Shown: one piece after another, positions 48,314-63,037 of the stretch
How positions within the stretch are numbered: position 1 is the first letter of the stretch
Layout: every line of letters begins with the position of its first letter
Source of the DNA: an uncultured Nitrosomonas sp.
GTDB taxonomy: Bacteria > Pseudomonadota > Gammaproteobacteria > Burkholderiales > Nitrosomonadaceae
Direction of reading: 5' to 3'
DNA: 64,000 bases
Assembly (NCBI GenBank): GCA_902826055.1
Contig: CADEDJ010000001.1
Coordinates: 1-64,000 of the forward strand
The notes under the pieces: model-generated
Database searches by the model: none
Told to the model about the DNA's origin: nothing
What the model saw: the letters and a program-made list of their open reading frames with translations, nothing else
Program-made: the position numbers and the translations under genes

Positions 48314-48663
48314 GATTGCATTCTCCTAACAAAGATTTGGCACTCCAGAAAATAATAGCGATTCTTTTTTCTTTCCATCAAAGCTATTATTTTATAATGA
48401 TACTCCACAATCGAACGATGTATAGGTAAATCTAAATCTGACTCAAAGATCAAAAAGTTGGCGCTGATATGAGTTAAGTTTTGTAGCGACTTTGAGATTG
48501 TGTTTTGCTATTTACATATCAAAATATTATGCAATAGAGCAATCTCCATAACCATTGCTTTTTCCAAACTACGCAATTAGAATCCCATTCGTTACTGTCT
48601 TTCTACAAATATGCCGATTGAACGATTAACGGCATAACTACTCAAAAAGCAGTAATGCAATGG

Positions 48664-48765
48664 GAAACTAGGGTTCCGGTCTAAAGCAAAACGGCGTCAG
48701 GTCCAAGAGTTTCCGGTCTCGTGATAACGAGGCTCCACGGAGGGAAAAAAGCCCGGGAGGTTAAG
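48664..48765 (+). ncRNA. Guanidine-I riboswitch (ykkC class)
   Basis: The conserved blocks of the ykkC RNA appear in order: CTAGGGTTCCGGTC at 48668-48681, GGTCCAAGAG at 48700-48709, CCACGG at 48735-48740, and GGGAAAAAAGCCCGGGAGG at 48742-48760. A hairpin CTCGT/ACGAG (48718-48722 with 48727-48731) and the short GGG/CCC stem (742-744 with 752-754) are visible. The consensus GGTCCGAGAG has one G-to-A change. The class binds free guanidinium and switches on export or degradation genes. It lies 60 nt before the permease and so controls the whole guanidine operon. Upstream, 48314-48663 shows no other recognised element. Confidence 0.93.
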
Positions 48766-48766
48766 G

Positions 48767-48790
48767 TGTAATGTACTGGTGTACATTACA
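48767..48790 (+). promoter_or_regulatory. Perfect 10-bp inverted repeat between riboswitch and permease gene
   Basis: TGTAATGTAC (48767-48776) and GTACATTACA (48781-48790) flank a TGGT loop. A TTTTTT run follows at about 48805-48810, not directly next to the stem. It may be part of the riboswitch expression platform (a terminator-like hairpin or a partner of the aptamer 3' end), or a protein-binding palindrome. Confidence 0.5.
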
Positions 48791-48825
48791 ATCTCGGTAA
48801 ATCCTTTTTTGTACGGAGTCTTGTT

Positions 48826-50271
48826 ATGTCAGGTTCAACAAAACAAACTGCTTCCTCGCAAGATACTCATGGAGCTGGTGATATGCTCAATCGCAGCATG
48901 AGTGTATGGCACAGTTTCACGCTGGGTTTTGCGGTTGTCTCACCAGTCGCCGGACTCTATGCCATCATCGGCGTACAAACAGTAGTGGCCGGTGGCGGCT
49001 GGTTTGCCGCATTGGCGGTCTGCTTACTCATGCAACTGCTGGTAGCTACGGTTTATGCGGAATTGTCTTCGCAATTTCCGATTGCGGGCGGCGCCTATAA
49101 ATGGGCACGGCAGCTCGGCGGTGCCATAGCCGGAAACTATGCGGGCGTGATCTATATTTGTTCCACCATCGCCATGGTCACCACAACCGCCTACACCGGT
49201 GGTTTCTGGCTGGCAACCTTCTGCGGGGTGTCAGATAATGGCGGTGAAATCATGGTGCTATGGGCCGCTTTGTTCCTGCTTCTTTGTACCTTGCTCAACC
49301 TGGCGCCCGTCAGCATTTTCAATCTGATAATCAAATTGGGTGTTTACGCCGAAGTCGTCGGATCTTTCGGCGTTGCATTGCTATTATTCTTTTTCTTCCG
49401 CCAGCATCCGTTCATGGAATTATTCCAGCATATGGGTACCGGCACAGCGCCCAGTGAAATGGCTGCATTTCTGGCGGCATTAGCTATATCAGGCTGGGCC
49501 TTTATCGGTTTTGATGCCTGCTCCACGACCGCCGAAGAAACCCATCAACCCAAGCGCATGGTACCTCGGGCAATTTTCATGTCGCTACTGCTTGTCGGCA
49601 CGGTAGTTTTATTCAACTCAGCCGCATTGATTCTGGCTTTTGAGCATGACACGTTGAGACATTCCAGTCATACATCCGATCCGGTTACGCCACTGATCGC
49701 CAGTAGCATTGGAGAATGGTTTGAAAAACCCTTTTTAGCAATCGTGATGACTGCTTTTCTGGCCTGCGGTGCATCAATGGTGAAATATACATCCCGTATC
49801 GTATATTCGATGGCACGAGAGGGCAATATGCCCGCAATACTGAGCCGGGTGACAGTTAGCAAGACGCCGCGTAATGCTGTCCTCTTTACCGTTTTGTTGG
49901 CAGGTTGCGGATTAATTTTCGGACTTAATGACGATGCCGTGGCCACCATTATCGCTTTCGGTACCGGCGGTTTATATGCCATGTTTACCTTCACGACCGG
50001 GTTTGCATTAGTTGCCCGGCTCACAGGGCGGTGGGATCCTCAACTCGGAGAATTAAAACTGGGTAAATGGGGATTAATCATCAATATCTTAGCGTTCATG
50101 TGGTCGTTATTTGAAGTCATCAATATTGCCTGGCCACGCCCTTATGCCATTTCGGCTGACGCGCCTTGGTGGCAATTGTGGGCAACTCCTCTGGTTTTAG
50201 GCAGCATTCTTACCATCACAACTGTGTATATTCTTTACAAAAAATGGTTTAGCGATAAGAAACTCTCTTAA
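48826..50271 (+). CDS. APC-family permease, probable guanidine importer
   Basis: 481 aa with about twelve transmembrane helices. The amino acid-polyamine-organocation superfamily pattern is clear: SFTLGFAVVSPVAGLYAI near the N-terminus, QFPIAGGAYKWARQLGG, and GWAFIGFDACSTTAEETHQPKRMVP in the middle. Start ATG 48826 has a GGAG site at 48815-48818. It is the first gene after the guanidine-I riboswitch and heads the carboxylase operon, so the likely cargo is guanidine (guanidinium). Homologues are often labelled urea or amino acid permease; the riboswitch is the reason for preferring guanidine. Confidence 0.9.
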   Translation: MSGSTKQTASSQDTHGAGDMLNRSMSVWHSFTLGFAVVSPVAGLYAIIGVQTVVAGGGWFAALAVCLLMQLLVATVYAELSSQFPIAGGAYKWARQLGGAIAGNYAGVIYICSTIAMVTTTAYTGGFWLATFCGVSDNGGEIMVLWAALFLLLCTLLNLAPVSIFNLIIKLGVYAEVVGSFGVALLLFFFFRQHPFMELFQHMGTGTAPSEMAAFLAALAISGWAFIGFDACSTTAEETHQPKRMVPRAIFMSLLLVGTVVLFNSAALILAFEHDTLRHSSHTSDPVTPLIASSIGEWFEKPFLAIVMTAFLACGASMVKYTSRIVYSMAREGNMPAILSRVTVSKTPRNAVLFTVLLAGCGLIFGLNDDAVATIIAFGTGGLYAMFTFTTGFALVARLTGRWDPQLGELKLGKWGLIINILAFMWSLFEVINIAWPRPYAISADAPWWQLWATPLVLGSILTITTVYILYKKWFSDKKLS

Positions 50272-50283
50272 AAGGAATTCATC

Positions 50284-51009
50284 ATGAATCAGCACAATAC
50301 AATAATCTGGAAACAATCCATCCCGGGAGGATGCCACTGGTCGGGCATCATCCGTCGCGGTACGACATTGCGGTTAACTGATGTCGATGGAGGCGCCAAT
50401 ACTGCGGTATTGTTTTTCAATCAGGAAGAAAAACTCGAGCGTTACAATATGGCGGACACCTTGAAATCCCAGCATACTTTCCGCTTGACCAAAGGACATG
50501 CTTGCCATTCGGATATGGGACGGATTTTCTGTTGCATCACGCAAGATACCGCAGGCTGGAACGATACCGTATGCGGCTTGAGCGACAGTCACTCAATCCA
50601 ACAACAATACGGCACTGCGCGCTATCAGGAACATCGCAATCAAATGTTTCGCAGCGGCCTGGATGGCATGTTGATTGAATTGGGAAAATGGGGATTGGGG
50701 ATGCGCGATATCGTTTCGAATATCAATTTTTTCAGCAAAGTAACCGCCAATAGCGCCGGGGAATTAACATTTCATCCTAATCACAGCAAAGCGGGCGATT
50801 ATATCGACTTGAGTTTCGTAATGAATACGCTGCTGGTGCTATCTGCGGCTCCCCATCCTTTGGATCCGAAGCAGCCTTATCAGCCCGGTGCAGTCACTTT
50901 AGAGCTGTTCGATACACCCGCTGAAGCCGCTAACGAATGCCTGCATATCGCCGAGAATATTCGCGCATTACAAAATGCCAAACATTTTTATTGTGAGGGT
51001 ACGCTATGA
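50284..51009 (+). CDS. DUF1989 protein, carboxyguanidine deiminase subunit (first of pair; 'urea carboxylase-associated')
   Basis: 241 aa, the longer of two DUF1989 proteins in the operon. Conserved phrases are [45 protein letters not shown] and SNINFFSKV. These proteins used to be called urea carboxylase-associated; together they are now known as the heteromeric carboxyguanidine deiminase (CgdA/CgdB) that removes ammonia from carboxyguanidine to leave allophanate. Which subunit name applies here I cannot say. It starts 12 bp after the permease and its stop overlaps the next start (ATGA), implying translational coupling and equal production. Confidence 0.88.
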
Positions 51010-51668
51010 ACACATTTAATCTGCAAACAAGCCAGCTTGATCCCAACCAAGCAGTCGTGAATGAAATTTGCGCCGCCGGTGAGCCTTGGACCAAGATTGT
51101 CAAGCAGGGACAATTTTTCCGTATCGTCGATCTGGAAGGCAATCAAGCCGTTGATACATTGTTTTTCAATGCCAATCACGCCTTGGAGCGTTATAGCGCG
51201 ACCGATACCATCCGTGCTCAAAATAAGCTGTATTTGACCACCGGCAGTAAGCTGTGCTCCAATTTTGGCAACACCATGCTGACAATCGTAGCGGATACCT
51301 GTGGGCGTCATGACACATTGGGCGGCGCCTGTGCGGCGGAAAGTAACACGGTTCGCTATGCGCTGGAAAAATACCCGATGCACAGTTGCCGCGACAATTT
51401 TTTGCATGCGCTGGCGCATGATACCGCTTGTGAACAATTAGGCATGAGCAAGCGCGATATTCCCAGCAACATCAATTTTTTTATGAATGTTCCTGTAACT
51501 GAAGACGGTGGCTTGGAATTTGTCGATGGTATCTCAGCGCCGGGTAAGTATGTCGAAATGCGTGCGGAAATGGATGTATTGGTATTGATTTCCAACTGCC
51601 CGCAACTCAACAATCCATGTAACGCGTATAACCCGACGCCGATCCGCTTGCTGGTCTGGGATGCCTAG
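51006..51668 (+). CDS. DUF1989 protein, carboxyguanidine deiminase subunit (second of pair)
   Basis: 220 aa, homologous to the preceding gene. Shared features are the [18 protein letters not shown] strand pair, [32 protein letters not shown] (with Cys and His possibly binding metal) and SNINFFMNV. It should form the deiminase together with the preceding product, acting on the carboxylase product in the cytoplasm. The ATG overlaps the upstream stop by four bases. A 66-bp gap follows before the carboxylase, containing a GGGGATAA site. Confidence 0.88.
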
Positions 51669-51734
51669 TTATGTATGACAACAAGCTGAGCAATGACACC
51701 CGGCTGACCATTTATCCAATAAGGGGATAATGCC

Positions 51735-54700
51735 ATGTTCGACAAAGTCCTGATTGCCAATCGCGGCGCTATCGCGTGCCGGATTATCCGCACCCTGCGC
51801 CGCATGCAGGTCAAAAGTGTAGCAGTCTATACCGAGGCCGATGTGTTATCGCGGCATGTCGCCGAAGCCGATGAGGCCTATTGCATTGGCAGCGGGCTGG
51901 CTGCAGAGAGTTATTTGCGTACCGATAAAATCCTGGAGATTGCCCGGCAAAGCGGTGCGCAAGCTATTCATCCCGGCTATGGTTTTCTCAGTGAGAAAGC
52001 CGATTTTGCCGAGCAATGCGCTATTCATGGCATCCGTTTTATCGGTCCTACCCCGCAGCAAATGCGCGCCTTTGGTTTAAAGCACACGGCACGCGCCTTG
52101 GCGCTGGAAAACCAGGTACCGCTTTTGCCGGGAAGCGGTTTGCTGGAGAATCTTGAGGCGGCTTGTCATCAAGCCAAGCATATCGGCTATCCGTTGATGT
52201 TGAAAAGTACCGCGGGCGGTGGCGGCATCGGTATGCGGCTGTGCTGGAACCAGGATGAGCTGATGAGTGCTTACGAATCCGTCAAAGCGTTGGCACAAAA
52301 CAATTTTAAGGATGCCGGGTTGTTCCTGGAAAAATATGTCGACCGTGCGCGCCATATTGAAGTGCAGATTTTCGGAGATGGCAATGGCCAAGTCGTTGCA
52401 CTCGGCGAGCGCGATTGTTCCATGCAACGACGCAATCAGAAAGTCATCGAGGAAACGCCTGCTCCCAATCTCGTTCCTCATTTGCGCCAGGCACTGCTGG
52501 ATACGGCGGTGCGCTTGGGAAAGGCTGTGAATTATCAGTCTGCGGGTACCGTCGAATATATTTTTGACGATACTACCGGTCAGTTTTATTTTCTTGAAGT
52601 TAATACCCGCTTGCAAGTTGAACACGGTGTAACAGAGGAAGTCACCGGTATCGATCTGGTGGAGTGGATGGTGCGGCAAGCCGCGGGCGATCTACCCTCT
52701 CTCGATTCTTTCACGATCGAACCCAGCGGCGCTTCCATTCAGGTGCGGGTGTACGCTGAAAATCCTGCCAAAGATTTCCAGCCTTCCAGCGGAATCCTGA
52801 CGGCGGCCGAATTTTCTGACGCCGCACGTGTTGAAACGTGGGTTGAACGCGGTATTGAGGTATCCGCATTTTACGATCCGATGCTGGCCAAAATTATTGT
52901 GCGTGCGCCGGAGCGGGACGCAGCCATTACAAAACTACTGAATGCATTGGATAACACATCGCTGCATGGCATTGAAACCAATCTGGATTATCTCAAGCAA
53001 ATTCTGCATAGCACAGTGTTTCGCAGCGGACAGCAAAACACGCAATTTCTCAATGGGTTTCATTATCAGCCGCACAGCATAGACGTCCTGAATGCCGGTG
53101 TGCAGACCACGATACAGGACTATCCCGGGCGGATCGGCTACTGGAATGTGGGCGTGCCGCCTTCCGGACCGATGGATAGCCTGGCTTTCCGTCTCGCCAA
53201 CCGCTTAGTCAACAATCCTGACAACAGCGCCGGGTTGGAAATCACGCTGGCAGGTCCGACGCTGCGCTTCAATTGCGATAGCGTTATTGCGATCTGTGGC
53301 GCGCCGATCGATGTATGCTTGGATAGCGAACCGCTACTGCAATGGCAGTCTCACTTCATCAAAGCAGGCGCGCTGCTGCAATTCGGCAAAGTCCGGCAAT
53401 CCGGCAGCCGGGTTTACTTGGCTGTGCACGGCGGCTTTCAGGTGCCCGATTATCTCGACAGCAAATCCACCTTCACGCTCGGACAGTTCGGCGGCCATGC
53501 GGGCCGTGTGCTGCGTGCCGGCGATGTGTTGCATGTTCGGCCGTTGCCATCTTCTCAGCCGGATTCGCAGCAAGTGCCGCAGCAGTGGATTCCGCGTTAT
53601 ACCAATCAGTGGGAGATCGCCGTCTTGTATGGGCCGCATGGCGCACCGGATTTCTTCACCGCAGCCGATATTGAACAGTTTTTTGCCGCTGAGTGGAAGG
53701 TGCATCACAATTCCAGCCGTACCGGCGTGCGTCTGATCGGCCCCAAGCCGCAATGGGCACGCAGCGATGGCGGCGAAGCCGGCTTGCATCCCTCCAATAT
53801 TCACGATAATGCTTATGCCATCGGGGCGGTTGATTTTACCGGAGACATGCCGATCATCCTCGGCCCTGACGGCCCCAGCCTAGGCGGATTCGTGTGTCCG
53901 GCCACAATCGCGCAGGCAGAATTGTGGAAAACCGGACAACTTAGACCCGGTGACAGTGTTCGCTTTTACCCGATATCGCTGGAACAAGCATTGGTATTGG
54001 AACAACAGCAAAATCAATTGATTCGGCAGCTTAATACGGATACCGGCGCGCCGGTAATTTCCCGCTCCGAAAAACCGGGCAATGCCGTTCTGCATCGAAT
54101 TCCGGAGAGCGCATCATCCGTGCAAGTGACTTACCGGCAATCCGGCGATAAATACCTATTGATCGAGTACGGCCCGCCCATCCTCGATTTGAATTTACGC
54201 TTCCGCGCTCACGCTTTGATGACATGGCTGCAACAATGCATAGACAAGCAGGAACTTAGCGGCATTCTGGATCTGACACCCGGTATCCGCTCGCTGCAGA
54301 TTCATTTCGATTCGCGCCGACTGGCGCGCGAAAAATTGCTGGAAATGTTGATTGCAGGCGAAAAACAGCTACCCGCGATTGACGAAATGGAAGTGCCGTC
54401 TCGTATCATTCATTTGCCGCTTTCTTGGGATGATGCTGCCACGCGGCTGGCGATCGAGAAATATATGCAATCGGTACGCAGCGATGCGCCCTGGTGTCCG
54501 AGCAATATCGAATTTATCCGCCGCATTAACGGACTGGAATCGATTGAAGACGTGCAGCATATTGTATTTTCGGCCAGTTATCTGGTAATGGGACTGGGCG
54601 ATGTTTATTTGGGCGCACCGGTTGCAACGCCATTGGATCCGCGCCATCGCTTGGTCACTACCAAATACAATCCGGCACGTACCTGGACGCCGGAAAATGC

Positions 54701-55358
54701 CGTCGGTATTGGTGGTGCCTATTTATGCGTGTATGGCATGGAAGGCCCGGGCGGGTATCAGTTTGTGGGCCGCACGATGCAAATGTGGAATCGTTACCGT
54801 CAAACAACCGATTTCAAGGATGATAAACCCTGGTTATTGCGTTTCTTTGATCAGATCCGTTTCTACCTGGTTAGCGAAAGCGAATTGCTCAGGCTGCGCC
54901 AGGATTTCATTAGCGGGCACTTCAAGCTGCGTACTGAAGAAACAGTTCTGAACTTGAAGCAATACCAAATTTTCCTGCAGCAACATGCTGCAAGCATTAA
55001 CACATTCAAAACCCGGCAACAAGCTGCATTCGAAGCTGAGCGCCAACGCTGGGAAGCCCACGGTCAATCGCAATATGTCAGTGAAGATGTACTTGATGAA
55101 GCGGATACCCAGAGCGAACTGGATTTGCCGCAAGGCTCCCAAGCTGTCAGTTCGCAGGTTACGGGCACGGTATGGAAAATACTGGCCGATGAAGGTGAAT
55201 CCGTGGAAGCAGGCAAGCCGGTGATCATGATTGAATCGATGAAAATGGAATTTCCGTTGGATTCGCCGGTTACTGGTACGGTGCAACAATTATTTTGCAA
55301 ACAAGGCGGGTATGTATCGGCCGGTCAAGTACTTTTCATCGTTCGGGAGAATCAGTGA
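51735..55358 (+). CDS. Biotin-dependent guanidine carboxylase (annotated homologues: urea carboxylase)
   Basis: 1207 aa, normal size for bacterial urea amidolyase-type carboxylases. Domain order: biotin carboxylase (about 1-450; [13 protein letters not shown] at 157-168 and [16 protein letters not shown] at 225-240), carboxyltransferase halves KipA/AHS2 and KipI/AHS1 (about 455-1030), and C-terminal biotin carrier domain with biotinylated Lys1170 in [11 protein letters not shown] and bicarbonate charge biotin, and the carboxyl group passes to the substrate. The guanidine-I riboswitch and the two deiminase genes indicate guanidine as substrate, giving carboxyguanidine; urea may be a secondary substrate. 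The stop overlaps the next gene by one base. Confidence 0.93.
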
Positions 55359-57184
55359 TGAGTCGTAAAATTCTTCCGCTACCCGATATTTCATCGTTGC
55401 AGCAACATTACGCAAGGGGTGAATGGTCACCACCCCAAGTAGTCGAAGCCCTCTATGCCGAAATTCAAAATGACCCGGATCATATCTGGATTTCCACGCT
55501 GTCATTGGAATCGTTGCGAAACTATGCGCGCAATATCGAGGCGCAAGGGATGGCATCACTGCCGCTGTATGGCGTGCCTTTCGCCATTAAAGACAATATC
55601 GATTTGGCAACATTACCAACTACGGCAGCTTGTCCGGCTTTTGCTTATACACCTTCCGGCAGTGCCACGGTTGTGCAAAGACTCATTGATGCCGGTGCCA
55701 TCCCCATCGGCAAAACCAATCTCGATCAATTCGCTACCGGATTGAATGGCACACGATCGCCTTATGGCGCGTGCCGCAATGCCTTTAACCCCGAGTATAT
55801 TTCCGGTGGCTCCAGTTCCGGTTCAGCAGTCGCAGTCGCCAAGGGGCAGGTGTGCTTTAGCCTCGGTACCGATACTGCAGGTTCCGGCAGAGTGCCCGCC
55901 GCTTTTAATAATCTGATCGGCTATAAACCGACCAAAGGCTGGTTCTCCGCTCACGGCATGGTGTCGGCCTGCCGATCCCTCGATACCCTATCCGTTTTCA
56001 CTTTTACCGCTGCGGATGCGGCACTTATTCTAGCTATTGCTGCCGCCTATGATGCAGAAGATAGCTATTCCAGGAAAAGAGAAGCACATGATTTCAATTT
56101 TGGCGCGGCGTCGCATTTTCGTTTTGGTATTCCACGCCAGCAACAACTCAAATTCTTCGATAATCAGGACAGTGAGCGGTTATTCTATGAATCCATTGCC
56201 CGAATACGTGCGATGGGTGGAGAAGCCATCGAAATAGACTTTACGCCATTTATCGAAACTGCCCGCCTGCTTTACGAAGGCCCGTGGATAGCTGAACGCT
56301 ATGCGGCAATCCGGTCATTTTTTGATTTACATAACGAGCAAATCATCGCGCCGGTACGTGAAATTATCGCAACTGCGAAACAGCGTTCGGCAGCGGATGC
56401 GTTTGAGGGAATCTATCAGTTACGCCAGCTCAAACAACAGGCAGACCGGATCTGGGCGAATATCAATTGCCTGCTGACACCGACCGCCGGTACCATCTAT
56501 ACCATTCAAGCCATGCAACAAAATCCGGTTCGTCTCAACACCAACTTAGGGTTTTACACCAATTTCATGAACCTGCTCGACTACGCAGCGGTTGCTGTTC
56601 CCGCAGGCCTTCAGCAGAATGGATTGCCTTTTGGTATCACGCTGGCAGCACCCGCACATCACGATGAATCGCTGCTGCATCTTGCGCACCGGCTGCAACA
56701 AGCCTACTCCCTCCCTTTAGGTGCAACAGGCATTGCGTTTCCGCACAATACCGATTTCCCGGCGGCATCCCGCTCCGGCCAGGTGTGGATAGCCGTATGT
56801 GGAGCGCATTTGTCGGGTTTACCGTTGAATGAACAATTAACCAGTCGCCAAGGCCGATTAGTAGCTAGCACGACCACGTCATCGGATTACAGGCTTTACG
56901 CATTGCCGGGAAAATCACCGCAACGGCCCGGTTTGATCCGCGTCAACCCAAACGAAGCAGGCGCTGCAATCGAAGTGGAAGTGTGGGAATTACCAGAATG
57001 CGAATTCGGCAGTTTTACCGCCAATATTCCCGCGCCACTAGGAATTGGCCGCATTACGCTGGCAAACGGTGAAACGGTACAAGGCTTTCTGTGTGAGCAC
57101 TATGCCATCATCAATGCAGAGGATATCAGCCATTTGGGTGGATGGCGCAACTACTTGCGACAACTGGATAAATCATTATCTTAA
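55358..57184 (+). CDS. atzF: Allophanate hydrolase
   Basis: 608 aa. The start ATG 55358 overlaps the carboxylase stop (TGATG); the frame is open upstream but this start matches the family. The amidase-signature domain (about 1-440) has the Ser-cisSer-Lys triad: Lys78 in FAIKDNIDLA, Ser152 in GGSSSGSAV and Ser176 in GTDTAGSGRVP. The C-terminal domain (about 475-600) is the second allophanate-hydrolase domain that decarboxylates the intermediate. Products are ammonia and CO2. It completes the guanidine route; the stop is 48 bp from a convergent HxlR gene. Confidence 0.96.
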   Translation: MSRKILPLPDISSLQQHYARGEWSPPQVVEALYAEIQNDPDHIWISTLSLESLRNYARNIEAQGMASLPLYGVPFAIKDNIDLATLPTTAACPAFAYTPSGSATVVQRLIDAGAIPIGKTNLDQFATGLNGTRSPYGACRNAFNPEYISGGSSSGSAVAVAKGQVCFSLGTDTAGSGRVPAAFNNLIGYKPTKGWFSAHGMVSACRSLDTLSVFTFTAADAALILAIAAAYDAEDSYSRKREAHDFNFGAASHFRFGIPRQQQLKFFDNQDSERLFYESIARIRAMGGEAIEIDFTPFIETARLLYEGPWIAERYAAIRSFFDLHNEQIIAPVREIIATAKQRSAADAFEGIYQLRQLKQQADRIWANINCLLTPTAGTIYTIQAMQQNPVRLNTNLGFYTNFMNLLDYAAVAVPAGLQQNGLPFGITLAAPAHHDESLLHLAHRLQQAYSLPLGATGIAFPHNTDFPAASRSGQVWIAVCGAHLSGLPLNEQLTSRQGRLVASTTTSSDYRLYALPGKSPQRPGLIRVNPNEAGAAIEVEVWELPECEFGSFTANIPAPLGIGRITLANGETVQGFLCEHYAIINAEDISHLGGWRNYLRQLDKSLS

Positions 57185-57232: not shown

Positions 57233-57553
57233 TTACTCAGCCGCAACAGGATATTTCCTTCCCCATTCATCCATCGCCAGCAGGATAGCTTTAAGTGAAT
57301 GCCCTAACGGAGATAACGAATATTCGACACGTGGTGGAATTTCGTTGAAATCATTTCTGACAATTAATTGATGCACCTCCATCTCGCGCAATTGCCGGCT
57401 TAAGGTACGGTGGGTAATACCTGTCAAATTCCGTTGCAGCTCGTTAAATCGCATCGTGCCATTTAACAAATGATGGATAATTAGAACCTTCCATCGTCCG
57501 CCTATTACTTTCAGCGTAACTTCTACAGAACAACAAACTTGTTTAACTGGCAT
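57233..57553 (-). CDS. HxlR family transcriptional regulator
   Basis: 106 aa, a single winged helix-turn-helix of the HxlR/MarR-like type. CSVEVTLKVIGGRWKVLIIHHLLNG is the family opening, with a redox-candidate Cys pair (VCCSVEV, residues 7-8), and RFNELQRNLTGITHRTLSRQLREME is the recognition region. Such regulators are often repressors responding to thiol-reactive or aromatic compounds. It is transcribed away from the pirin operon, so it most likely controls that operon and itself through the inverted GTACTT sites in the 110-bp gap. Start ATG 57553. Confidence 0.92.
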   Translation of the reverse strand: MPVKQVCCSVEVTLKVIGGRWKVLIIHHLLNGTMRFNELQRNLTGITHRTLSRQLREMEVHQLIVRNDFNEIPPRVEYSLSPLGHSLKAILLAMDEWGRKYPVAAE

Positions 57554-57591
57554 TTTGAATCTCCTTGTTTATAACAGTATCCTTTTTGTGC

Positions 57592-57636
57592 GTACTTGTA
57601 ATTTAACCAGATCATATTAATCTACTACGTAAGTAC
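57592..57636. promoter_or_regulatory. Candidate HxlR operator region with inverted GTACTT half-sites
   Basis: GTACTT at 57592-57597 faces AAGTAC at 57631-57636, each in a wider TACTTGTA or TACGTAAGTA context. They lie between the divergent starts of the HxlR gene (57553) and the pirin gene (57663). HxlR-family boxes often contain TACT...AGTA symmetry, so binding here is plausible. Confidence 0.35.
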
Positions 57637-57662
57637 AAAATCTTGCTGGAGGATAATAAGCC

Positions 57663-58559
57663 ATGCTGACGACAATACAACCTGAAGTATCCGCAAAAAA
57701 ACTATCGCGCATCCTACGAAATGCAAACCAACATTGGGTTGGCGATGGCTTTCCGGTACGCACACTATTTTCCTATTCAACGCTGGGACCGATGATCAGC
57801 CCTTTTTTGCTGTTTGATTATGCAGGGCCATTGGAATTTCAGCCGACTAGACAGCGTCACGGTGTTGGCGAACATCCGCATCGCGGTTTTGAAACCGTTA
57901 CCATTGTGTATAGCGGCAAAGTGGAGCATCGTGACAGTTCCGGTGCTGGCGGAAAAATTGGGCCTGGCGATGTGCAATGGATGACCGCAGCTTCCGGTCT
58001 GGTGCATGAAGAATTCCATGGCCGCGATTTCGCCGAGCATGGCGGCGTGTTGGAGATGGTGCAATTGTGGGTGAACTTGCCGGCCAAAGACAAGATGTCG
58101 CCACCGCACTATCAAAGTATTCTGGAAAGCCAGATTCCTGTCATCGATCTGCCGGAAAATCAAGGAAAAGTACGCGTTATTGCCGGTGAATTCGAGGGAG
58201 CCGCAGGACCAGCACATACTTTTACGCCAATCAACGTCTGGGATTTGCGCTTAAACAATGAGCAGCCGATCGACCTTGCCGTGCCCGATGGCTATAACAC
58301 ATTGCTCGCCGTGCTCAAAGGATCGGTGCGTATCAACAATGAAACCGAAACCATTAACGCAGCAGAGGTCGGCTTATTTACTCAAGCAGGCGGTCATATT
58401 CGCATCAATAGCGCATCCGATACGACTGCGCTATTGCTGTGCGGTGAACCGATCAATGAACCCATCGTCGGCAGCGGCCCGTTTGTCATGAATACCGCGG
58501 AGGAAATCCGCCAGGCCATGGCAGATTACCAGAGCGGTAAAATGGGCAGAATCGCATGA
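57663..58559 (+). CDS. Pirin family protein (quercetinase-like bicupin)
   Basis: 298 aa. The N-terminal cupin carries the pirin metal ligands His71, His73 (HPHRGFET), His115 and Glu117 (GLVHEEFH), and PGDVQWMTAASG. The second cupin (about 165-285) lacks a full ligand set, as is usual. Bacterial pirins often have quercetin 2,3-dioxygenase activity or bind regulators; the physiological substrate is unknown. ATG 57663 has GGAGG at 57648-57652. It is the first gene of the operon controlled by the divergent HxlR regulator. Confidence 0.93.
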   Translation: MLTTIQPEVSAKKLSRILRNANQHWVGDGFPVRTLFSYSTLGPMISPFLLFDYAGPLEFQPTRQRHGVGEHPHRGFETVTIVYSGKVEHRDSSGAGGKIGPGDVQWMTAASGLVHEEFHGRDFAEHGGVLEMVQLWVNLPAKDKMSPPHYQSILESQIPVIDLPENQGKVRVIAGEFEGAAGPAHTFTPINVWDLRLNNEQPIDLAVPDGYNTLLAVLKGSVRINNETETINAAEVGLFTQAGGHIRINSASDTTALLLCGEPINEPIVGSGPFVMNTAEEIRQAMADYQSGKMGRIA

Positions 58560-58603
58560 ACGCACATAATTACGCGTAATGAACCGGTTGCATTTTTACA
58601 GAG

Positions 58604-58963
58604 GTGTTCAAAATGAACTTAGAAGAAAAACTCAACGATTTAAATAACATGATTCTCAGGGGTGAGATATTGGAATCGATGGACAAGTATTACCACCCCG
58701 ATTGTATCGTTATCGAAAAAAATGATGTGGTGGCAAAAGGCTTAAAGCAAGCCAAAAAGCGCGAATCCGAGTTATTTGAAGGCGTTGAAGCATGGCTTAA
58801 ATCGGAAATTGTATCCACAGCCGTAGGAGAAAACGTAACGATGACCGAGTGGCATTACGAATACACGCATAAAGATTTCGGGCACAAGAAATTCGATCAA
58901 GTAGCGGTGCAGCACTGGCAGGATGGCAAAATCATCAGTGACCGCTTCTATGCGTTGTACTGA
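58604..58963 (+). CDS. SnoaL-like/NTF2-fold small protein
   Basis: 119 aa. The cone-shaped NTF2-like fold is suggested by an N-terminal helix (LEEKLNDLNNMILRGEILESMDKYYHPDCIVIEKND), then a central helix and strands (TMTEWHYEYTH, VAVQHWQDGKIISDRFYALY). The Tyr-His pair and the final DGKI strand are typical of SnoaL/ketosteroid-isomerase relatives, which are isomerases, hydrolases or binding proteins. The exact role is unknown. It lies 44 bp after the pirin gene in the same operon, with GAGGTGTTC before the start. Confidence 0.8.
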   Translation: MFKMNLEEKLNDLNNMILRGEILESMDKYYHPDCIVIEKNDVVAKGLKQAKKRESELFEGVEAWLKSEIVSTAVGENVTMTEWHYEYTHKDFGHKKFDQVAVQHWQDGKIISDRFYALY

Positions 58964-59002
58964 ACAATCATTTCATCATCAATAACCTAAAGGAGCACAA
59001 CA

Positions 59003-59632
59003 ATGAACAAAACCTTCAAATACAACAAACTATCAAAGGATGATGCGGTTTTATTACTGGTAGACCATCAGGCGGGATTGATCTCGCTGGTACAGGATTT
59101 CTCACCGAATGAATTTAAGAACAATGTGTTGGCTCTGACAGCTTGTGGCAAGTATTTCAAATTGCCAACCATTTTAACAACCAGTTTTGAAGATGGTCCC
59201 AATGGCCCACTGGTTCCGGAAATCAAGGAAATGCACCCAACCGCGCCTTATGTTGCGCGCCCTGGCAATATCAATGCTTGGGACAACGAGGATTTTGTTA
59301 ACGCAGTCAAAAAGACCGGCCGCAAACAGCTAATCATTGCCGGCGTTGTTACCGAAGTCTGTGTCGCTTTTCCGGCACTATCTGCGATCGAGGAAGGTTA
59401 TGAAGTATTCGTAGTTACCGATGCCTCCGGTACTTTCAATGAAGTAACACGCGACGCGGCTTGGATGCGCATGCAGACAGCCGGTGTGCAATTGATGAGC
59501 TGGTTCGGCGTGGCGTGTGAATTGCACCGCGATTGGCGCAACGATATCGAAGGTTTGGGCGCTTTATTTTCCAACTATCTGCCCAACTATCGCAATCTGA
59601 TGACGAGCTACTTCACCATTACTAAAAAATAA
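59003..59632 (+). CDS. YcaC-like isochorismatase-fold cysteine hydrolase
   Basis: 209 aa, a full-length isochorismatase-fold protein. Asp21 (LLLVDHQAGL) and Cys120 (AGVVTEVCVAFPAL) match two of the three catalytic residues known in E. coli YcaC (Asp19, Lys84, Cys118 as I recall). The third falls at Arg86 (VARPGNINAWD) instead of Lys. The WDNEDF and VVTDASGTFNE segments are YcaC-typical. Relatives hydrolyse amides or similar bonds, but YcaC's own substrate is unknown. The start has an AAAGGAGCACAAC site. It sits in the pirin operon, 30 bp before an amidohydrolase. Confidence 0.92.
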   Translation: MNKTFKYNKLSKDDAVLLLVDHQAGLISLVQDFSPNEFKNNVLALTACGKYFKLPTILTTSFEDGPNGPLVPEIKEMHPTAPYVARPGNINAWDNEDFVNAVKKTGRKQLIIAGVVTEVCVAFPALSAIEEGYEVFVVTDASGTFNEVTRDAAWMRMQTAGVQLMSWFGVACELHRDWRNDIEGLGALFSNYLPNYRNLMTSYFTITKK

Positions 59633-59661
59633 ATGGTCACAAGCTCTAAAGGCGATGAATC

Positions 59662-61641
59662 TTGAGTGACACTGCGGTAAACCAGCGCCGCCGCCGTATT
59701 CTGCAAGCGGCGGGCGCATCTTTATTGCTTTCTAAAACTGGCGCATTAGCCGAGCCATCAGGAGGACCATCAATGCATAACATTAAAGCGCAACTGATAC
59801 TGCGCAACGGCCAATTCACCACGCTTGATCGTCAGAATCCGCAAGCTACGGCTGTTGCCATTTCGGATGGTCATTTCATCGCGGTAGGAATGGATAACGA
59901 GGTGATGCGCTTTGCCGATGACCAGACAAAAGTGATTGACCTCAACCGCCGCCATGCGATTCCGGGGTTAATCGACTCACATCTACACCTTATCCGCGGC
60001 GGACTCAATTACAACTTGGAATTACGTTGGGACGGTATCCCTTCGTTGGCGGATGCCATGCGCCGTCTGCAAGAACAAGTGGCACGCACACCCGCGCCGC
60101 AATGGGTGCGCGTTGTAGGCGGTTTTACAGAAATGCAGTTTGCCGAGAAACGTTTGCCAACACTCGATGAAATCAATGCCGTGGCACCGGATACCCCGGT
60201 TTTTATTTTGCATCTCTACGATCGCGCCCTGCTTAACCGTGCGGCGTTGCGCGCCTGCGGCTACAACCGCGATACGCCGAATCCGCCGGGCGGGTTGATT
60301 GCCAAAGATACCAACGGAGAACCCACCGGTCTACTATTGGCGGAACCCAATGCATTGATTTTATATTCAGCGCTCGCCAGAGGTCCTAAACTGCCGTATG
60401 ACTACCAGATCAACTCGACGCGCCACTTTATGCGGGAAATGAATCGCCTGGGCGTGACCAGCGTGATTGATGCCGGCGGCGGCTACCAGAATTACCCCGA
60501 CGACTACAAAATCATCGAAGACCTGCATCAAACTGGCGAGCTGACGCTACGGATTGCATACAACTTATTTACGCAGAAAGCCGGAGAAGAAGTTGCGGAC
60601 TTCACCAAATGGACCAAAATGCTGAAACCCGGCGACGGCGATGGTTATTATCGCCACAATGGTGCAGGTGAAATGCTGGTGTTTTCCGCAGCGGATTTTG
60701 AAGATTTCCGCATGCCACGCCCGGATATGCCGGCACACATGGAAAATGACCTGGAAGCTGTGGTGCGCATCCTCGTTAGCAATCGCTGGCCGTTCCGCCT
60801 GCATGCCACATACAATGAAACCATCTCACGGGCGTTGGATGTTTTCGAAAAAGTGAACCGCGACATTCCCTTTGCTGGATTGCACTGGTTTTTTGATCAC
60901 GCCGAAACCGTGACCGATGTCAACCTCGAGCGCATCGCCAAACTGGGTGGCGGCATTGCCATTCAGCACCGCATGGCCTACCAGGGTGATTTTTTTGTAC
61001 AACGCTATGGCCGCAAAGCTGCAGAACGCACACCGCCTTATCAACGTATGCTGGAAATGGGCGTAAATGTCGGTGCCGGTACCGATGCCACCCGCGTAGC
61101 CAGTTACGATCCTTGGAATGCACTCTATTGGCTCACTACCGGCAAGACTTTGGGTGGCCTTTCATTATATCCGGCGGCTAATCTCGTCGATCGCGAGACT
61201 GCATTACGGCTTTATACACAGGCCAATACCTGGTTCTCCAACGAAGAAGGCATCAAAGGCCAAATCAAAACCGGTCAATACGCCGACCTCGCCGTGCTGT
61301 CCGCTGATTATTTCAGTGTCCCGGAAAACGAGATCCGGCAGCTTGTCTCAGTACTCACAGTGCTTGGCGGACGGATTGTTTATGGTGACGATGAATTCAG
61401 TGCGCTTGCTCCACCCTTGCCACCCGCCATGCCGGATTGGTCACCAGTGAATTATTTCGGCGGCTATTTCAAACCTGCGGCAGGTGCAACGGCGCTACAT
61501 CCGTTTGCGCAAACAGGCTGCGGTTGCGGAAACAATTGTGTTGTGCACGGCCATGCCCATGGACGCGCCTATCAGGATGCTGTAGATGCCGGCGATCAAC
61601 GCGGTTTCTGGGGCGCGCTTGGTTGCTCATGCTGGGTATGA
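59662..61641 (+). CDS. Exported YtcJ-like amidohydrolase with Cys/His-rich tail
   Basis: 659 aa from TTG 59662, kept because it includes a Tat-like signal (RRRRILQAAGAS, residues 9-20, then a short hydrophobic stretch ending at GALA). The amidohydrolase-3 domain (about 40-570) has the metal-binding HLH at 107-109 (LIDSHLHL), later His residues (HWFFDHAE, IQHRMAY) and Asp in GAGTDATRVAS. The last ~45 residues are unusual: Cys620, Cys622 and Cys626 with His629, His631 and His633, then Cys655 and Cys657. An N-substituted amide or imide substrate in the periplasm is likely. The next gene, a porin, begins 46 bp after its stop. Confidence 0.88.
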   Translation: MSDTAVNQRRRRILQAAGASLLLSKTGALAEPSGGPSMHNIKAQLILRNGQFTTLDRQNPQATAVAISDGHFIAVGMDNEVMRFADDQTKVIDLNRRHAIPGLIDSHLHLIRGGLNYNLELRWDGIPSLADAMRRLQEQVARTPAPQWVRVVGGFTEMQFAEKRLPTLDEINAVAPDTPVFILHLYDRALLNRAALRACGYNRDTPNPPGGLIAKDTNGEPTGLLLAEPNALILYSALARGPKLPYDYQINSTRHFMREMNRLGVTSVIDAGGGYQNYPDDYKIIEDLHQTGELTLRIAYNLFTQKAGEEVADFTKWTKMLKPGDGDGYYRHNGAGEMLVFSAADFEDFRMPRPDMPAHMENDLEAVVRILVSNRWPFRLHATYNETISRALDVFEKVNRDIPFAGLHWFFDHAETVTDVNLERIAKLGGGIAIQHRMAYQGDFFVQRYGRKAAERTPPYQRMLEMGVNVGAGTDATRVASYDPWNALYWLTTGKTLGGLSLYPAANLVDRETALRLYTQANTWFSNEEGIKGQIKTGQYADLAVLSADYFSVPENEIRQLVSVLTVLGGRIVYGDDEFSALAPPLPPAMPDWSPVNYFGGYFKPAAGATALHPFAQTGCGCGNNCVVHGHAHGRAYQDAVDAGDQRGFWGALGCSCWV

Positions 61642-61687
61642 TGCATACAACGCTTTTCTTATTCAGCAAACCGGCATGTGCCAGCAG

Positions 61688-63037
61688 ATGGCAAAGAATC
61701 TTAAGCTCAACTTGACTGCTGCTGCGATGCTCACGCTATCATTACCAACGACTGCATCCGAATATCTGCCGCTACGATTTGAGGAAAATTGGGGAGCCAA
61801 TTGCAACAAAATCGCACCCAAATGCTGGCGTATCGGCGAAGCGGCCACGCTAACATTGGGTGCGGATGCGCGCGTACGCACCGAAGGTGAGTGGCCACTT
61901 GATTTTGGTATCGATAACGCTACCGGCAAGGGCGATGGTTTTACGCTATTTAGAGCAATGATGCATGGCGATCTACGCGTTGGCAAACATGCTCAAATGT
62001 TCGTACAGTTCGGAGCATATGATGAAGCCGGACGCCGAGGTGGGCCTATCAGTGTCGATCAAAGCACTCCCGATCTGCAGCAAGGTTTTTTAGCGTGGAG
62101 CGGTGACAAGTTTTCCTTGCGTGCAGGCCGGCAGGAAATGACGCTTGGCACTTCACGTCTGATCGCGGTACGAGAGGGCCCCAATATTCGCCTCGCTTTT
62201 GACGGTGCACGCGCCGGTTGGAAGCAGGGACCACATCGCATCGACGCCTTTGCCTTTCGTCCAGTTCTCAATAAGCCAGAAACCTTTGATGACACAGTTA
62301 ATAAATCGCAATTTCTGTACGGTTTGTATGCCACGCTCATCCCGAACAGTATTGCTCCTATCAAAATCGATCTCTATTGGCTTGACTACGAAAGAGATCA
62401 AGGGCGATTTGCAGTCGTAGAAGGACGCGAGCACAGGCATTCTTTCGGTACCCGTCTGTTTGGTTCTGCCAAAGGCTGGAATTGGAACATGGAGGCCATA
62501 CTCCAGATCGGCCATGTCGGTAATCATACCATTCGGGCCTGGACGATTACCTCTGATACTGGTTTTACTTTCGCTACGTTACCTTGGTCACCGCGATTCG
62601 GCTTGAAAGCGGATATTGCCAGCGGCGATAAAAATCCTCACGACGGACAACTCGGCACCTTCAACGCACTCTATCCCAATCCTACCTACTTCAGCGAGGC
62701 GGCATTCTTGGCACCTGCTAATGTCATGGATCTGCAGCCAACCGTGAGCATTAAACCTATTCCTACGTTAACTCTGCTGTTAGGCTGGAATTTTTTGTGG
62801 AAACATCATAAAGCTGATGCGGTTTACACACCACCCGCCCCCTTGGTAGCGATACCCGAAACCATTGGAACCGGCCGCTATATCGGTGATCAGATCAGAC
62901 TGGAAGGCAGTTACCGCCCTCATCCTCAGTGGGAAATCCGCGCCGCCGCTGTTCATTTCAACACAGGGGAAGCCTTAACGCAAGGTGGTGGCAAAAGCGT
63001 AAATTTCCTTATGACAAGTTTGGCATTCCGCTGGTGA
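61688..63037 (+). CDS. Outer-membrane porin (alginate-export/AlgE-like)
   Basis: 449 aa from ATG 61688, which starts a good signal peptide (KLNLTAAAMLTLSLPTTAS); ATG 61676 is four codons upstream, and the frame is open even further back into the amidohydrolase gene. The mature protein shows alternating beta-strands and many aromatic girdle residues. Segments like RTEGEWPLDFG, FLAWSGDKFSLRAGRQEM and a strand ending FNTGEALTQGG are typical of the alginate_exp porin family. It ends in an aromatic C-terminal residue (LAFRW), a sorting signal for outer-membrane barrels. It likely lets the operon substrate enter the periplasm. Confidence 0.75.
   Translation: MAKNLKLNLTAAAMLTLSLPTTASEYLPLRFEENWGANCNKIAPKCWRIGEAATLTLGADARVRTEGEWPLDFGIDNATGKGDGFTLFRAMMHGDLRVGKHAQMFVQFGAYDEAGRRGGPISVDQSTPDLQQGFLAWSGDKFSLRAGRQEMTLGTSRLIAVREGPNIRLAFDGARAGWKQGPHRIDAFAFRPVLNKPETFDDTVNKSQFLYGLYATLIPNSIAPIKIDLYWLDYERDQGRFAVVEGREHRHSFGTRLFGSAKGWNWNMEAILQIGHVGNHTIRAWTITSDTGFTFATLPWSPRFGLKADIASGDKNPHDGQLGTFNALYPNPTYFSEAAFLAPANVMDLQPTVSIKPIPTLTLLLGWNFLWKHHKADAVYTPPAPLVAIPETIGTGRYIGDQIRLEGSYRPHPQWEIRAAAVHFNTGEALTQGGGKSVNFLMTSLAFRW

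Follow-up and report, generated by a model that had tools for sequence, protein, structure and literature searches.

Guanidine degradation in ammonia oxidisers and other bacteria

The closest described system is the guanidine pathway of betaproteobacterial ammonia-oxidising bacteria (AOB) such as Nitrosospira multiformis and Nitrosomonas, which 135 of 145 betaproteobacterial AOB genomes encode, in most cases close to a gene for an APC permease (PMC11410670). It comprises a guanidine-I riboswitch, an APC permease, a carboxyguanidine deiminase, a carboxylase with an Asp/Asp signature and an allophanate hydrolase, and urease is encoded elsewhere in the genome. The operon described here is located in a stretch of 64,000 nucleotides of an uncultured Nitrosomonas sp. 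(contig CADEDJ010000001.1; hereafter, the window). No difference in gene content to the described pathway was found, and the operon is a further member of this known type. Operons of Pseudomonas syringae DC3000 and of enterobacteria encode the same enzymes and carry the same riboswitch class; however, they have an ABC transporter instead of the APC permease (PMC11410670; PMC12186494), and the enterobacterial genes, unlike those of the window, are split between guanidine-I and guanidine-II switches (PMC12186494). Comammox Nitrospira are ammonia oxidisers that combine a guanidine-I riboswitch with an APC permease, as in the window, but they possess a nickel guanidinase and urease, whereas the window encodes an ATP-using carboxylase (PMC11410670).

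Guanidine-I riboswitches are described as usually transcriptional (PMC12186494; PMC11410670), and a platform in which an aptamer strand pairs with the start site is absent from the discussion of PMC11410670. A described expression platform for AOB guanidine-I riboswitches was not found in the literature searched, which covered few subscription papers. In the guanidine-II ON switch, access to the start site is controlled by alternative pairing, which is likewise proposed here. The Mbox of M. tuberculosis is linked to an upstream ORF (PMC12810186), and a riboswitch-linked short ORF also occurs in sister lineages of the window host. Both systems, however, use another aptamer class and other strands, whereas the candidate anti-Shine-Dalgarno (anti-SD) strand of the window is the 3' strand of helix P2 of the guanidine-I aptamer.

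Organisation of the operon

The operon consists of five genes in one orientation, which are preceded by the riboswitch leader (Table 1). A preliminary description of the locus had listed a permease, two DUF1989 proteins, a biotin carboxylase and an allophanate hydrolase in tight order, and both the gene set and the junctions (12-bp gap, ATGA overlap, 66-bp gap, TGATG overlap) were found as claimed. It had also recognised a guanidine-I aptamer in the leader, which was borne out by a cmscan search against all Rfam families: RF00442 is the sole match in the window, covers the model in full length and exceeds the gathering threshold of 63 bits. The riboswitch is present as a single copy in the 3.02-Mb genome, and its aptamer would be expected to bind guanidine. 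Other Nitrosomonas repeatedly show this order of genes behind the same riboswitch, which argues that the arrangement is more than chance.

Table 1. Features of the guanidine operon and its leader in the window
Feature	Position	Strand	Basis
Guanidine-I riboswitch aptamer (RF00442)	48657-48761	+	cmscan, 83.7 bits, E 1.9e-13
P2 3' strand plus loop bases, ATAACGAGGCTCC; putative anti-SD/anti-start strand	48724-48736	+	complementarity, covariation
CCGGGA, 3' strand of helix P3; alternative partner of 48792-48797	48753-48758	+	pairing in leaders
Hairpin GTAATGTAC...GTACATTAC between the two anti-P3 strands	48768-48789	+	sequence; form kept in alignment
TCTCGG, anti-P3 strand	48792-48797	+	alignment
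Permease Shine-Dalgarno GGAG, spacer and ATG (GGAGTCTTGTTATG; mimics P2 5' strand)	48815-48828	+	
APC-superfamily permease, 481 aa, putative guanidine importer	48826-50271	+	PF13520/PF00324
DUF1989 protein, UAAP1 (TIGR03425), 241 aa	50284-51009	+	319.7 bits, cut-off 206
DUF1989 protein, UAAP2 (TIGR03424), 220 aa	51006-51668	+	347.5 bits, cut-off 285
Biotin-dependent guanidine carboxylase (predicted), 1207 aa	51735-55358	+	TIGR02712; D700/D956
Allophanate hydrolase, 608 aa from ATG	55358-57184	+	PRK08186 852 bits, TIGR02713 806 bits

The permease is a probable guanidine importer, and its match to TIGR03428, the permease of urea carboxylase systems, reaches only 163 bits with a cut-off of 740. 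The two DUF1989 proteins both score above their cut-offs and adjoin the carboxylase, as is characteristic of the two subunits of the carboxyguanidine deiminase CgdA/CgdB; UAAP1 and UAAP2 proteins were later identified as this enzyme (Schneider et al. 2020, as cited in PMC12186494). The last gene encodes the Amidase and AH_C domains of an allophanate hydrolase and matches TIGR02713. Its start is likely the ATG at 55358 rather than the TTG at 55295, which is a mechanical start given in the ORF list. On the 3' side of the operon (57233-63037), the window contains genes for an HxlR-type regulator, a pirin-like protein, a SnoaL-like protein, a YcaC hydrolase and an Amidohydro_3 protein as well as another long ORF (61586-63037); these genes seem to form a unit of their own, which has no riboswitch.

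Guanidine as the likely substrate

The carboxylase matches the NCBIfam model TIGR02712, 'urea carboxylase', with 1955 bits (cut-off 1304), and automatic annotation would thus mislabel the operon in the way that had been anticipated. This name is what speaks for a role of the operon in urea use, with urea being degraded by urea carboxylase and allophanate hydrolase, the urea amidolyase route. Guanidine carboxylases, however, are marked by an Asp at the position of residue 1330 of the K. lactis enzyme, which is Asn in the yeast urea enzyme, and by a conserved Asp at 1584 (PMC11410670). The window carboxylase has both residues: D700, read off the alignment with 5i8i and 3va7, aligns with N1330, and D956, placed by counting along the same alignment, with D1584. 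Within the fetched set, residue 700 is Asp in every AOB-type carboxylase that covers it; a Pseudomonas copy with the allophanate hydrolase gene placed upstream (L064) has Asn. For riboswitch-linked homologues, kinetics that favour guanidine over urea are reported (PMC7266159). A urea operon would also be at odds with the guanidine-I riboswitch in front of the genes, with the DUF1989 pair, and with the presence of a urease and a urea transporter in the genome. The urea amidolyase reading was dropped on account of the signature residues and the gene context, and we consider it highly improbable.

Guanidine is the likely substrate of the carboxylase, and the claim of the preliminary description that this is a guanidine rather than a urea operon is upheld by the riboswitch class, the guanidine carboxylase residues and the UAAP1/UAAP2 pair. 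In the proposed pathway, guanidine would enter the cell via the APC permease and be carboxylated by the biotin enzyme using ATP. The DUF1989 pair would then deiminate the carboxylated guanidine to allophanate, and allophanate hydrolase would free the remaining ammonia and CO2, resulting in a total of three ammonia per guanidine. Both the transport of guanidine and its use in vivo are predictions from the gene sequences.

A predicted translational ON switch in the leader

The stretch from the Shine-Dalgarno sequence (SD) to the start codon of the permease, GGAGTCTTGTTAT(G), is a potential partner of the P2 3' strand, which is complementary to 48815-48827 over 13 bp, including two G-U pairs. We propose that, in the absence of guanidine, the P2 3' strand would leave its 5' strand and pair with the SD and the start codon, while the P3 3' strand would pair with the downstream TCTCGG, thereby shutting out the ribosome. 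Upon binding of guanidine, the aptamer would hold P2 and P3 together and free the start site, so that translation could begin. The riboswitch of the window is thus probably a translational switch rather than a textbook transcriptional one. We put the probability that a guanidine-I riboswitch drives this guanidine-breakdown operon as a translational ON switch by P2/P3 strand exchange at roughly 0.8; both direction and level of control are inferred from the leader and its relatives.

The pairing between the P2 3' strand and the start site (P2':start) was analysed in an alignment of 38 AOB leaders (A1), in which nine distal pairs were scored. The pairs are formed in 87.6% of the cells, as compared to 19-60% when the strands are slid against each other. 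Twelve cells are double-changed, a number reached by none of 500 shuffles, although the leader sequences are related and such counts are therefore not probabilities. The double changes replace G-C by A-U in seven sequences and A-U by G-C in four, and a single sequence has U-A instead of C-G. When partners were permuted among the 27 distinct strand pairs, the true combination gave 398 versus 352 (sd 9.4), and none of 5000 permutations was as high. On average, 7.6 of the nine pairs can form, versus 4.6 of nine for 347 control starts of other genes at the same loci; the controls included the operon's own starts, which makes the comparison conservative. In all 38 leaders, the start is located 84-94 nt from P3. 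The pairing of the P3 3' strand with TCTCGG is formed in 98.2% of the cells, and its lack of double changes is explained by the invariance of P3.

Structure predictions of the window leader are consistent with strand exchange. In the free fold, the SD is hidden in the P2 3' strand, and in the aptamer-enforced fold the AUG is free, with part of the SD still paired locally. The free fold is favoured over the aptamer fold by 12 kcal/mol in nearest-neighbour energies, which omit the ligand and tertiary contacts. Two leaders (L037 and L046) show almost no predicted pairing of the P2 3' strand with the SD in the ensemble, and the two leaders of N. eutropha (L038 and L040) are without the SD-start pairing element.

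The same leader could also be read as a transcriptional switch, in which the stem of the P3 3' strand and TCTCGG would form in the absence of guanidine and stop RNA polymerase at a T tract. The usual behaviour of the class points in this direction, as do the conservation of the anti-P3 stem in 98% of the cells, the T6 tract at 48805-48810, the T4-T6 tracts that around half of the close relatives possess, and clear terminators elsewhere in the class (e.g., L099, L107, L118 and L121). The usual platform of guanidine-I riboswitches is an intrinsic terminator, which is not a defining feature of the class. A scan of the window leader, however, detected nothing that resembles a terminator; a predicted pairing with the SD is found instead, and seven bases separate the stem from the T tract. 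Around ten relatives keep the stem without a T tract, and the covarying P2':start pairing would be left unexplained. The terminator reading of the leader was dropped due to the negative scan and the absence of T tracts in many relatives, and transcriptional control as the main mechanism appears unlikely; the T6 tract would allow for a transcriptional contribution next to the predicted control of translation. The lack of a terminator leaves the membership of the aptamer in its class untouched.

Distribution and variants of the leader and operon

Guanidine-I leaders of the class were also scored in 21 genomes outside the AOB; about four of the nine P2':start pairs can form in them (average by eye), which is near chance, and a generality of the pairing beyond AOB was dropped. 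Together with the several clear terminators in these genomes, this makes the pairing look specific to AOB within the sample.

In 13 of the 38 AOB leaders (L015, L018, L019, L021-L023, L031, L033, L043, L047, L049, L062 and L063), the SD-start element at 84-94 nt from P3 does not open the permease gene but a short upstream ORF, which is 14-90 codons long; the start of the permease follows around 70-300 nt after that of this ORF. The window leader has the direct form, in which the element opens the permease. The longer upstream ORFs are weakly constrained, with a dN/dS of about 0.5 for most pairs and above 1 for one pair, and the idea that they encode a conserved protein was dropped. It seems reasonably probable that the guanidine-I riboswitch of betaproteobacterial AOB is a translational variant specific to their lineage, with a start site that mimics the P2 5' strand and competes for the 3' strand; in N. 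communis-like and Nitrosospira-like bacteria, the start would drive a short leader ORF in front of the permease, and guanidine would act via leader translation.

Gene content also varies among the relatives. In four Nitrosomonadaceae/Nitrosospira-like loci (L031, L033, L047 and L049), the carboxylase directly follows the riboswitch and the permease, with 6-36 nt between the match ends of permease and carboxylase and no DUF1989 pair in between; in L033, neither a deiminase nor an allophanate hydrolase was detected among the downstream genes tested. In Nitrosomonas eutropha (L038:1658-7053, minus strand, and L040), the riboswitch is followed by the permease, two DUF1989 genes and a truncated carboxylase, which consists of the CT and biotin domains and lacks the whole biotin carboxylase domain. 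A complete carboxylase adjoins this operon divergently, and the truncated protein may be part of a shared-domain guanidine carboxylase or a product of decay. N. oligotropha-like and other loci (L048, L042, L056, L046 and L027-L029) lack an allophanate hydrolase gene immediately behind that of the carboxylase; the end of the carboxylase gene of L048 is overlapped by a gene resembling thiopurine methyltransferase. Nitrospira sp. palsa_1310 (L032) has the permease-DUF1989-DUF1989-carboxylase order of the window, and no aptamer motif was found within 500 nt of its permease.

Host and physiological role

The host is a Nitrosomonas. An uncultured AOB bin and a Nitrosomonas metagenome-assembled genome encode the closest carboxylases (95-96% identity), many Nitrosomonas sequences come next, and the window genome encodes nitrosocyanin; the suggestion that the operon belongs to an ammonia oxidiser is thereby supported. 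A search for amoCAB and hao did not find amoA, amoC and hao in this draft genome, and a host that does not oxidise ammonia was considered; it was dropped after a control within the genus and in view of nitrosocyanin. In the same search, amoA was likewise not found in 18 of 40 other genomes of the genus, mostly drafts; a single-contig genome of 89% completeness (G028) lacks it too. In four near-complete genomes that consist of one or two contigs each (G006, G020, G029 and G035), both amoA and hao are present three times. The missing genes are likely explained by a loss of repeated genes during assembly or binning.

The preliminary description had further proposed that guanidine would supply both nitrogen and energy in the form of ammonia, without a nickel urease. 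The latter part is contradicted by the genome, in which ureA, ureB, ureC, ureE, ureG and a urea transporter form one cluster on contig C2. The former part is doubtful: five AOB that carry the gene set all failed to use guanidine as their only substrate, and three of them converted part of the guanidine, but only in the presence of ammonium (PMC11410670). These data, and the reported inhibition of N. europaea at 1 mM guanidine (PMC11410670), would fit an operon that serves to detoxify or co-metabolise guanidine and not to support growth on it. However, the operon is headed by a putative importer and not by an exporter, and the product of the pathway is the cell's own energy substrate. We regard such a benefit to the cell as a tentative explanation, somewhat short of even odds.

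Significance

The new part of this analysis is the comparative evidence that a guanidine-sensing RNA may hide and expose a start site, which would be a variant of a known mechanism. For an operon that is mislabelled by automatic annotation in an important nitrifying guild, guanidine is confirmed as the likely substrate, and the idea that the operon replaces urease in this host is corrected. Should the proposed translational platform prove real, the common view of guanidine-I riboswitches as regulators of transcription would fail for ammonia oxidisers, and the gating of guanidine use in AOB could be tested by a simple reporter.
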